Shown here in pieces: positions 2,039 to 23,451 of a stretch of 33,230 nt of DNA. The translations under genes and the position numbers were made by a program. Position 1 is the first letter of the stretch. Each line of letters opens with the position of its first letter. Location of the stretch: positions 1-33,230 of the IMG/VR virus record IMGVR_UViG_3300022539_000260, one strand, 5' to 3'. The notes beneath the pieces are model-generated. The model was not told where the DNA came from, did not search any database, and saw nothing but the letters and a program-made list of their open reading frames with translations. Source of the DNA: a virus.

Positions 2039-2101
2039 AATCCACCTTTCCTTTCTGCTTTACTCTTACTTCACTCCTTCAATAAAAGCCCAGGGGGGCG
2101 G

Positions 2102-2272
2102 TTAAGATACTACGGGTTTAGACGATACTATTTTTCCACATCTTATACAGATAGTAAATATTCTATGAGGTATCATTCCAACGTGTTTTTGCTTATAAGT
2201 GTTTTTGTGTTGACATTTACCTTGGAGGTCTATTTGGTTGAGTTTTGCCTGAAAAGTTTTTTCTAAACTCAT
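2102..2272 (-). CDS. Small zinc-ribbon-like protein, first gene behind the attenuator
   Basis: 56 residues, ATG at 2272 with AAGGAGTGAAGAT upstream. The Cys/His pattern C20-x-H22, later C42-x2-C45, could form a small zinc ribbon. It is the first gene after the predicted terminator and antiterminator leader at 2287-2383, so its expression would be controlled by that switch. Function unknown; small zinc proteins in phages are often regulators or host-takeover factors, which here is only a guess. Confidence 0.65.
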   Translation of the reverse strand: MSLEKTFQAKLNQIDLQGKCQHKNTYKQKHVGMIPHRIFTICIRCGKIVSSKPVVS

Positions 2273-2286
2273 ATCTTCACTCCTTC

Positions 2287-2347
2287 AAAAAAGCCCAGGC
2301 CGGTAGTGAGAACCGTTGCGAAGCGGAAGTGCAAAACCGGCTGGGCT
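2287..2347 (-). terminator. Predicted intrinsic terminator in the leader
   Basis: On the minus strand AGCCCAGCCGG (2347-2337) pairs with CCGG-C-CTGGGCT (2303-2292), 11 bp with one bulged C, followed by five more T (2291-2287). The 33-base loop contains one arm of the alternative helix. It sits about 15 bases before the ATG of the zinc-ribbon gene, directly before the ribosome site, and so could act as an attenuator. It could also terminate readthrough from the methyltransferase/nuclease pair. Confidence 0.7.
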
Positions 2348-2383
2348 GATTAGTTTGGTTTGGATTGTTCGCAACAATTCTCA
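2307..2383 (-). promoter_or_regulatory. Predicted antiterminator helix (alternative to the terminator)
   Basis: UGAGAAUUGUUGCGAA (2383-2368) can pair over 16 positions with UUCGCAACGGUUCUCA (2322-2307) in the minus-strand RNA, including two adjacent G.U pairs. In plus-strand RNA those two positions would be A/C mismatches, so the helix belongs to the minus transcript. Its arms interleave with those of the terminator. Three bases between its 3' arm and the terminator 3' arm are too few to span 16 bp, so the two structures should exclude each other. Confidence 0.6.
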
Positions 2384-2390
2384 TAAACAT

Positions 2391-2419
2391 ATTATCGGTT
2401 ACCTGGCCCGAAAATACAA
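2391..2419 (-). promoter_or_regulatory. Sigma70-like promoter P1 for the left accessory genes
   Basis: TTGTAT (2419-2414), 17-base spacer, GATAAT (2396-2391). A start about seven bases downstream falls at 2384, exactly where the antiterminator arm begins. The core AACCGATAATA is shared with the promoter at 3886-3913. Confidence 0.6.
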
Positions 2420-3885: not shown

Positions 3886-3913
3886 ATTATCGGTTATTTG
3901 CCCCAAAAAGCAA
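3886..3913 (-). promoter_or_regulatory. Sigma70-like promoter P2 for the methyltransferase
   Basis: TTGCTT (3913-3908), 16-base spacer, GATAAT (3891-3886), leading to a start about 17 bases before the methyltransferase ATG. It shares TAACCGATAATA with P1 at 2391, plus a G-rich spacer (GGGGC against GGGCC), so the two look like copies of one phage promoter. Confidence 0.55.
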
Positions 3914-3945
3914 GAAAAAAAGTGAAAATATTTTTTATTTTTGTC

Positions 3946-3974
3946 TTGCCAGGCGTCTTTAGTTATGGTATAAT
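3946..3974 (+). promoter_or_regulatory. Strong sigma70-like promoter, plus strand
   Basis: TTGCCA (3946-3951), 17-base spacer, perfect TATAAT (3969-3974). It fires away from P2, so 3886-3974 is a divergent promoter region. Confidence 0.65.
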
Positions 3975-3980
3975 GCCCGA

Positions 3981-4082
3981 TGAAAGTCGGATAATATATA
4001 TGGATAGTACATTACTTAACGGATTAGGTGTTTATAGGCTCGTTGGCCTTGGCAGCGATGTTGGGGCTGACGGGCTTTTTTT
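3981..4082 (+). ncRNA. Putative ~100-nt small RNA or attenuated leader
   Basis: Bounded by the plus-strand promoter and by the terminator at 4046-4082. No convincing gene lies inside: a 43-codon frame (4000-4131, beginning MDSTLLNGLG) crosses the terminator and has a poor ribosome site. It could be a free small RNA or the leader of the nuclease gene further downstream. Confidence 0.4.
4046..4082 (+). terminator. Predicted intrinsic terminator, plus strand
   Basis: GCCT (4046-4049) pairs with GGGC (4072-4075) and CAGC (4053-4056) with GCTG (4066-4069), across a small internal loop, followed by seven T (4076-4082). Confidence 0.5.
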
Positions 4083-4098
4083 ACAATTAAATATAAGA

Positions 4099-5161: not shown

Positions 5162-5184
5162 CAGGTTATTTGAAAGGAGCGAAA

Positions 5185-6006
5185 ATGAAAGCCAAGCAAT
5201 CCAGTTTTACTCTGATAGAACTTATAGTTGCTACTGCAATTTTGGCTATGGTAATTTTCTTTGCAGGCATAATTTTCAAAGTCAGTATAGGGGCTTTTCG
5301 CATTGGAATTGCAAATGCTGAAATTATGCGAAACCTACGAGCCCTTACTGACCAATTAAATATCGACTTCAGAGGTGTCCATAAAGGTATGCCTATTGTA
5401 GTATGGCCAGACCGCATCGTATTCCTTGCAACTGGAGATTTTCAATCATTTAGACAATATCCTTATGAAGACCCTAACGGTGATATATTCTCCAAAACAA
5501 TATGCGGTAATCTTGCAAGTATATTTTATGGCATAACCGATGTAGTAATAGATAAAGATGAAAAAGGGAACGATATTTTAGGTGAGCCAATATTGTCAAG
5601 AGGACAAATGATATTGACTTCCGATGATTCTTTATTGCAAAATCCGCCTGCGTTAAAATTAGGTGAATATTGTCAGATGTCTTTTTATGAATTTAGAGCT
5701 GAATGCAAAAACATTTTTGGGACTAAGCTTAGATGGGCGGGAGGGAATTTGCTGCCTTTAGACATTACTTCAGAACAGGATTTAACAAGGTATATGATTA
5801 AAGGAATAAGTGCTTTCAAGATAGAATATGAGCAATGGAACAACAAAAAGCTGGATTGGCTTTCAGGAAATAATATTTTCGTAGATGCTGAACACGCTAA
5901 AGGTCATAGCACAAGAGCCATCAAGTTCACTTTTACACTACACGATTCAAAAAGGATTATAGAGAACGGTCGGCGGTTTACTCATATTGTTTATATAGAT
6001 AATTAA
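5185..6006 (+). CDS. Type IV pilin-like / type II secretion pseudopilin
   Basis: 273 residues from ATG 5185, which has AAAGGAGCG upstream; a TTG five codons earlier is the ribosome site itself. The N-terminus is a classic prepilin: a short basic leader, then FTLIELIVATAILAMVIFFAG, with Glu at +5 of the mature protein and a hydrophobic helix. The rest is a long globular domain with an aromatic, acidic C-terminus; the length suits a minor pseudopilin of GspJ type. A prepilin peptidase of the host would process it for insertion into a pilus or secretion pseudopilus. It is out of place in a virion operon and is carried with its own promoter, which suggests a cargo gene acting on host surface structures. 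Confidence 0.8.
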   Translation: MKAKQSSFTLIELIVATAILAMVIFFAGIIFKVSIGAFRIGIANAEIMRNLRALTDQLNIDFRGVHKGMPIVVWPDRIVFLATGDFQSFRQYPYEDPNGDIFSKTICGNLASIFYGITDVVIDKDEKGNDILGEPILSRGQMILTSDDSLLQNPPALKLGEYCQMSFYEFRAECKNIFGTKLRWAGGNLLPLDITSEQDLTRYMIKGISAFKIEYEQWNNKKLDWLSGNNIFVDAEHAKGHSTRAIKFTFTLHDSKRIIENGRRFTHIVYIDN

Positions 6007-6062: not shown

Positions 6063-6377
6063 ATGAAAACTATTATATGTAGTATGGTAGCGTTTGTGAT
6101 AATAATTGCCGGTCTTGCTTATGCCAGACAAAAACCTCTAACTACGGAACAAAGAATGGCGATACACAAACGGCAACTTGAGGAGCGCAAGGAAGGTCTT
6201 GAGCTTGGTGAAGTTAGACCATCCCGCTTCTCACAGCGGCAGGGAATAAGACCAACAAGAACAAGTATATATATTGCCATTGCCGTTGACGAGAGATACC
6301 TATATCTTTTAGACAGGAGTGGGCGGTTAAGCAAGATAGCTAAATCAAATATTACTATGGCTGATTATAAACGGTAG
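6063..6377 (+). CDS. Small secreted protein
   Basis: 104 residues. A Sec signal peptide is clear (basic MKTI, a hydrophobic core to about residue 20, cleavage after LAYA). The mature part is charged with a helical segment (TTEQRMAIHKRQLEER) and a beta-rich end (VDERYLYLLDRSGRLSKI). Its ribosome site and start (AAAGGAGCGAAAATGAAA) match those of the pseudopilin 56 bases upstream, so the two probably form one unit. The 3' end overlaps the end of the opposing tail gene by 23 bases. Function unknown. Confidence 0.7.
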   Translation: MKTIICSMVAFVIIIAGLAYARQKPLTTEQRMAIHKRQLEERKEGLELGEVRPSRFSQRQGIRPTRTSIYIAIAVDERYLYLLDRSGRLSKIAKSNITMADYKR

Positions 6378-22421: not shown

Positions 22422-22934
22422 TTAGTTAGTAATCGCCGTCGGCATTGCTGCCTTCGCATAGCGGGGCTTTGATAGAACAGCAACTCCGCCCAAAATACAA
22501 CTTGTCGCATCAGCCCATACGCAGCTAACTTTTACCGTATCGTAGGGGTTGCCTATCGTAGGTTCTAAGTTTTCAGCATCAATCTCAACGACCATAAAAC
22601 CGCCGCCCGTACCTATATCCTCGGTATTACCCACCCCTAAAGACACACCGGTTGCGGGCATCGCCGTCAATACCCCTAATGTATCGGCGGTGGCATCCAG
22701 TTCTATGCGATAGCCCCTAACGGGGGTGGCTGTAGTACAAGTCGTTACGTTCTCGCCCTTGTAAACGATAAGGTTAGTTGTAGTAGCTGCATTTGTATTC
22801 GTTGCACCAAAATTGAGTATAATCGTACAATGGTCGTAGCCTTTCATACTGACAATATCGCTCGTCATTGTCGAGTTGTTATAATCCGCAGGCGGTAGAA
22901 TATTAACGACCTTATTCAAAAAAGTTCCAACCAT
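22422..22934 (-). CDS. Head decoration-like protein, pair copy 2
   Basis: 170 residues. Shares SMKGYDHCTIILNFGA, TTTNLIVYKGENVTTC, ELDATADTLGVLTAMP, GGGFMVVEIDAENLEP, NPYDTVKVSCVWA and AMPTAITN with the gene upstream. It follows the major capsid gene, the usual position of capsid-stabilising proteins. Confidence 0.7.
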   Translation of the reverse strand: MVGTFLNKVVNILPPADYNNSTMTSDIVSMKGYDHCTIILNFGATNTNAATTTNLIVYKGENVTTCTTATPVRGYRIELDATADTLGVLTAMPATGVSLGVGNTEDIGTGGGFMVVEIDAENLEPTIGNPYDTVKVSCVWADATSCILGGVAVLSKPRYAKAAMPTAITN

Positions 22935-22944
22935 AATAAACTCC

Positions 22945-23451
22945 TTAATCAGTTATCGCCGTAGGCATTACCTTGTTTTTGTAGCGGCCTTTCGATAGAA
23001 TAGCGATAATACTCATTTGTGTATCCTGAGCCGCCCAGACCATACCCAATTTCACCGTATCATAAGGGTTCGCTATCGTTGGCTCCAAATCCGCCGCATC
23101 AATTTCAACCACAATAAATCCGCCGCCTGTATCAATGTCTAAGGTATTGCCTGAACCTATGGATACTCCGAGTACTGGTAATGTAGTTAATGCTCCTAAT
23201 GTATCGGCGGTAGCGTCCAATTCCGCTCGATATTTACAGATAAAAGCCGTAGCGCAAGTCGTTACGTCCTCACCCTTACAGGCGATAAGATTCGTTGTAG
23301 TCGCTGCGCTTGTATTGCATAGACCAAACGAAATGACAAAGGTGCAATGGTCATAACCCTTCATACTGATAATATCAGTAGCTACTGTTGCGGCAGTCGC
23401 GTTTATAGATGCGTATGCATTTACAAGCTTGAATTCGTAAGTTCCAATCAT
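22945..23451 (-). CDS. Head decoration-like protein, pair copy 1
   Basis: 168 residues, aligned end to end with the next gene and clearly a tandem duplication. Immediately follows the major capsid protein. Beta-rich with an absolutely shared SMKGYDHCT segment. A role in coating or stabilising the capsid is inferred. Confidence 0.7.
   Translation of the reverse strand: MIGTYEFKLVNAYASINATAATVATDIISMKGYDHCTFVISFGLCNTSAATTTNLIACKGEDVTTCATAFICKYRAELDATADTLGALTTLPVLGVSIGSGNTLDIDTGGGFIVVEIDAADLEPTIANPYDTVKLGMVWAAQDTQMSIIAILSKGRYKNKVMPTAITD

Follow-up and report, generated by a model that had tools for sequence, protein, structure and literature searches.

A predicted attenuator-like leader with a 5'-terminal helix interleaved with an intrinsic terminator ahead of a phage accessory operon

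The window analysed here is the whole stretch of 33,230 bases, an entire virus record with tailed-phage genes for portal, terminase large and small subunit, head and tape-measure proteins. To the right of the leader considered below, the minus strand carries a DNA methyltransferase gene (3862-2915) and then the phrog_16357 gene (2934-2548), which a gap of 275 bases separates from a set of small minus-strand genes of unassigned function (2272-252). Read along the minus strand, the gap holds in order a promoter-like site, four pairing arms (A, then a linker, B, A' and B'), a U tract and a ribosome site. The first gene beyond it (2102-2272, minus strand) encodes 56 amino acids and was called a zinc-ribbon gene in a preliminary description of this DNA. 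A CxxH...CxxC pattern is indeed visible by eye, but a comparison of the product with Pfam gave no match, and the similarity to phrog_7696 is weak (E 0.005). Elsewhere in the window, tandem copies of about 340 nt that are 70-75% identical (22513-22859 and 23033-23376) lie in adjacent minus-strand genes and represent a duplicated gene. The plus strand encodes a prepilin-like protein (FTLIELIVATAILAMV, 5170-6006), whose gene is adjoined by that of a small protein with a signal-like start (6063-6377).

The promoter-like site (2391-2419, minus strand) consists of TTGTAT at 2419-2414 and GATAAT at 2396-2391, with a spacing of 17 nt that places the predicted +1 near A2384, as the preliminary description had it. 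By consensus the site is weak: its hexamers match at three and five of six positions, and the total of 8/12 falls under the 9/12 used as the threshold for listing promoters. A near copy precedes the methyltransferase gene (3886-3914, minus strand), where TTGnnTTTTnGGG...TAACCGATAAT recurs nearly unaltered, a recurrence not expected by chance. The near-identity of the two promoter regions, both of which contain the block TAACCGATAAT, points to shared regulation. In addition, three of the four GTATTTTC words of the window fall within 82 bases (2410-2491), at and upstream of the leader promoter, and one of them is inverted relative to the others, giving a 14-bp inverted repeat (2436-2495); this clustering suggests a candidate operator. 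On the opposite strand the window has a second promoter-leader-terminator unit (3946-4085, plus strand), located ahead of the rightward genes and comprising a strong, extended promoter (TTGCCA-17-TATAAT, 11/12) and, about 55 nt past its predicted start, a 19-bp hairpin with a T run.

From the predicted start, the minus-strand RNA opens with arm A (UGAGAAUUGUUGCGAA, 2368-2383, nt +2 to +17), the 5' half of a candidate antiterminator helix whose other half is arm A' (UUCGCAACGGUUCUCA, 2307-2322). The A:A' helix has 16 contiguous pairs, 14 of them Watson-Crick and two of them adjacent G.U pairs; at both G.U positions the plus strand would have A.C, in agreement with the claim that these pairs exist only in minus-strand RNA. 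Arm A is followed by an A/C-rich linker of 20 nt (2348-2367), which is unpaired in the A:A' fold, as had been noted, and which would be loop L1 of a possible pseudoknot. Arm B (AGCCCAGCCGGU, 2336-2347), the 5' arm of the terminator, pairs with arm B' (ACCGGCCUGGGCU, 2292-2304), the 3' arm with one bulged C, and A' lies within the loop that they enclose. The hairpin and the U tract (2287-2292) are present as described, but the stem has 12 bp (7+5, interrupted by the bulge), one pair more than the 11 first counted. The terminator directly abuts the Shine-Dalgarno sequence GAAGGAG of the 56-aa gene (2280-2286), again as described. At the level of sequence, an intrinsic terminator thus sits between the promoter-like site and the first gene, and the whole series, from the promoter-like site through the leader and the terminator with its U tract to the ribosome site, is directly consecutive. 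The leader is about 94 nt long and is made up almost entirely of the four arms and the unstructured linker, with no aptamer-like domain.

Such an arrangement is rare in shuffled sequence. Among dinucleotide shuffles of the leader, one in 20,000 contained a helix like A:A', and in shuffles of the whole window such a helix occurred anywhere in 3 of 60. A:A' is the longest helix with at most three G.U pairs in the whole window and the only one of that kind with an interleaved terminator. Interleaved elements with a helix of at least 12 bp arose in 58 of 400 shuffled windows, where the longest helix was at most 15 bp; none of the 400 had one with a helix of at least 16 bp. The folding energy of the whole leader lies 2.4 standard deviations below that of shuffles. 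Judged by sequence statistics, then, the A:A' helix with its interleaved terminator is a real, non-random RNA architecture, and it is rightly placed.

Folding of the growing transcript was followed with a pseudoknot-free model. Minimum-energy folding recovered both folds of the preliminary description, A:A' ahead of the terminator: A:A' is the minimum-energy fold between about nt 70 and nt 90, at -23.8 kcal/mol for nt 82-90, and by nt 94 the minimum has become the terminator, at -28.3 kcal/mol. In the ensemble the average for A:A' falls from 0.965 and 0.921 at nt 90 and 91 to 0.117 and 0.009 at nt 92 and 93, and that for B:B' has reached 0.93 at nt 93; the switch is therefore sharp and falls at nt 92-93, the final bases of the terminator. 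These averages imply that A:A' should form first and that the terminator is favoured once its last bases have been made, which in this model is the order that an attenuator should display. When A:A' is forced at nt 94-100 its fold has -25.2 kcal/mol, so that the terminator fold is better by just 3 kcal/mol or so, a gap within the error of the model, and the A:A' fold may be kinetically trapped over this interval. Pseudoknot-free folding of the leader accordingly gives an alternative helix of comparable stability that appears earlier than the terminator.

Whether one helix keeps out the other is a separate matter. The arms of A:A' and B:B' interleave, as had been claimed, but the mutual exclusion that was drawn from this does not follow from the sequence: the two helices have no nucleotide in common, and an H-type pseudoknot may hold both, so that exclusion is a hypothesis, if a plausible one. 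The folds are exclusive in the nested model, and a pseudoknot of both helices is sterically possible. The sterics were assessed coarsely, with both A-form helices treated as rigid bodies that linkers of 20, 13 and 2 nt connect; about 120,000 placements were free of clashes, of which, by straight-line distance only, 40% could be bridged at up to 4 Å per nucleotide and 91% at up to 5 Å. Given that no base is shared and that the two-helix pseudoknot is sterically easy, A:A' may not prevent termination.

The reading that best accommodates these features, and one about evenly balanced between right and wrong, is that the leader attenuates transcription in cis, with A:A' as the default, read-through fold. 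Polymerase would start near 2384 and transcribe leftward into an accessory operon of this uncultivated tailed phage. On leaving the polymerase, A' would pair with the 5'-terminal arm A (about -24 kcal/mol) some 15 nt before B' is complete, trapping arm B in a closed loop; the terminator hairpin would be slowed or blocked, and read-through into the small-gene operon would result. If instead the first 17 nt or so were occupied or removed, by a ribosome on the +1 AUG, a protein or a complementary RNA, B would be free for B', and polymerase would stop at 2292-2287, leaving a short transcript some 94-98 nt in length. Arms, energies and folding order in this scheme are computed; transcript start, termination, exclusion, the direction of control and the trigger are what we infer. 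The attenuator suggested in the preliminary description thus keeps its standing as the best reading, with the computed order of folding behind it and the exclusivity of its folds assumed. Counting in its favour are the A:A' helix, which is far beyond chance, its early dominance in the growing transcript, the two G.U pairs, which are more in keeping with a helix of minus-strand RNA than with an inverted repeat in DNA, the unbroken succession from promoter-like site to ribosome site, and the near copy of the promoter before the methyltransferase gene; the weak consensus of the promoter, the small energy gap between the folds and the possible pseudoknot count against it. A more specific and improbable form of the idea is that the 5' terminus of the RNA itself, perhaps a leaderless start codon, inserts into the terminator loop and so senses occupancy by a ribosome or of the 5' end through pseudoknot topology, no stem base being shared. 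If the attenuator is real, the phage controls a set of accessory genes through a very compact RNA switch that does its sensing with the first 17 nucleotides of the transcript, and an arm that pairs with the loop of the terminator, not with its stem, would test pseudoknot-type trapping as a means of controlling intrinsic terminators.

The main rival, itself unlikely, is a pseudoknotted terminator, in which both helices form together as a stable RNA of about 95 nt with its 5' end (from +2) and its 3' end buried. Such a molecule would not be a two-fold switch; it would function as an RNA, for example in trans, alongside a minority of read-through mRNA. The arms lend themselves to this, having no common nucleotide and linkers (20, 13 and 2 nt) that permit clash-free placement, and the energies of the two helices amount to -22.5 and -21.0 kcal/mol. 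Allowing for a pseudoknot penalty of about 9.6 kcal/mol (the Dirks-Pierce value), the structure with both helices would be the most stable one. The unstructured, A/C-rich linker would suit a switch and a pseudoknot equally. A trans-acting role fares less well: the best target for the 5' part at phage gene starts has -17.2 kcal/mol, and 92% of shuffles do as well. Moreover, the position of the ribosome site straight behind the U tract points to a role for read-through.

A variant of the attenuator would be controlled by translation. An AUG lies exactly on the predicted +1 and begins a putative leaderless ORF of 35 codons (MRIVANNPNQTNQPSRFCTSASQRFSLPAWAFLKE, 2277-2384, minus strand), which spans all four arms and stays open to a UGA overlapping the Shine-Dalgarno sequence of the next gene, as in coupled genes. 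A ribosome at its start would cover arm A and permit termination, and the operon would be read when translation was absent or the ribosome far downstream. Against this, the openness of the frame is at chance level, since 45% of shuffles and 29% of the ATGs in the window are open equally long; no similar peptide was found in phage records; and the ORF has no Shine-Dalgarno sequence of its own and, several Asn codons excepted, no obvious stalling codons. The variant is accordingly quite unlikely, and the ORF is a possible lead for ribosome sensing, not evidence for it.

Equally doubtful is a simpler account, in which the hairpin is a plain terminator of the methyltransferase/phrog_16357 operon, or a barrier to early genes that is passed by means of a phage antitermination factor, and A:A' has no switching role. 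The genes at 3862-2548 share the strand of the hairpin and lack a strong terminator behind them, and a promoter-to-terminator leader such as that on the plus strand (3946-4085) would be expected under general antitermination. This account, however, leaves the 1-in-20,000 helix unexplained, and a promoter-like site intervenes between the upstream genes and a terminator whose U tract adjoins the next ribosome site. Least probable is a DNA-level element, either a pair of 16-bp sites in inverted orientation that bind protein or a palindromic operator ATTGTTGCGAACAAT where transcription starts: as DNA, the arms are indeed inverted copies of each other, and near +1 arm A is overlapped by ATTGTT-GCG-AACAAT, but both departures from symmetry are of the type that minus-strand RNA tolerates as G.U, the pattern recurs elsewhere in the window only with three mismatches, and we know of no operator that fits asymmetric 16-bp sites, inverted and 45 bp apart.

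Comparison with known systems places the attenuator closest to the antisense-controlled attenuators of pT181-type plasmids, with which it is alike in its proposed working. The pT181 repC leader can fold in either of two ways: its antiterminator ties up the 5' portion of the terminator stem and allows read-through, and when the 5' part of the leader is blocked by another molecule the terminator forms (PMC4878617). In the phage leader, arm A pairs with A' in the terminator loop and not with B, no stem base is shared, and the terminator 5' arm is not sequestered by the antiterminator. A search of the plus strand at 1276-2367 gave no countertranscript promoter matching at least 9/12 of the consensus; weaker ones may be present there. 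For these two reasons, pairing with the loop and the lack of a strong countertranscript promoter, the leader is not placed in the pT181 class.

IsrK of the Salmonella prophage Gifsy-1 is transcribed from a prophage promoter, ends as a short RNA at a terminator with some read-through into downstream mRNA, has two alternative long-range folds and acts on translation in trans (PMC4825925). It is a precedent for the pseudoknotted terminator as a short sRNA accompanied by a read-through mRNA, and the phage leader, which is predicted only, resembles it in this respect and in its alternative long-range folds; it differs in that IsrK works on translation in trans and in that the leader matches no Rfam family. 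Across the whole window no Rfam family matched at gathering score, and a permissive search of the leader gave a best E of 0.46, far under the cut-off, which bears out the statement that it belongs to no obvious known riboswitch class. With transcription-terminating riboswitches it has in common an expression platform of antiterminator and terminator, but it is about 94 nt long and has neither an aptamer-like domain nor an Rfam match. Leader-peptide or uORF attenuators of the trp and vmlR kinds have competing hairpins preceding an operon. The phage leader has these too, with a possible short ORF through them, but that ORF is at chance level, is leaderless and spans the whole terminator rather than stopping before it.

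Relatives were sought among viral and genome contigs, using as queries the methyltransferase, the zinc-ribbon protein, the 1844 and 2548 proteins, terminase (as single and as aligned sequence) and portal, together with two DNA patterns of the arms. The searches returned the near-identical contigs 3300022538_000391 and 3300022538_000324 and one 79% relative by terminase (L020), which stops short of the leader region. In these collections the leader occurs elsewhere only in IMGVR_UViG_3300022538_000391, which is 99.96% identical over 2,500 bases; no diverged relative carrying it was found, and relatives of the methyltransferase at 40-49% identity are without it. The leader switch is at present a prediction from a single species. 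Matches to the arm patterns (L023-L030) had no promoter and terminator, and were set aside as chance-like.

Within the window, the core of the terminator 3' arm, the U tract and the Shine-Dalgarno sequence recur together (CCTGGGCTTTTATTGAAGGAGTGAAG, 2069-2094, minus strand) upstream of the gene at 2038-1844, and are followed by an apparent decayed start codon. Arms B, A and A' are missing from this copy, and a second attenuator there was rejected in the absence of the 5' partner of the terminator arm; the copy is probably left over from a duplication or a gene insertion. An unrelated viral contig (L007, 1920-2150, plus strand) has a TTGACA-17-TAGAAT promoter followed by a structured leader of about 190 nt (z -4.0) without a match in Rfam. 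In that leader a 15-bp helix is interleaved with a 19-bp terminator-like hairpin bearing a TTTTGTTTT tail, and it is an independent case of similar architecture.
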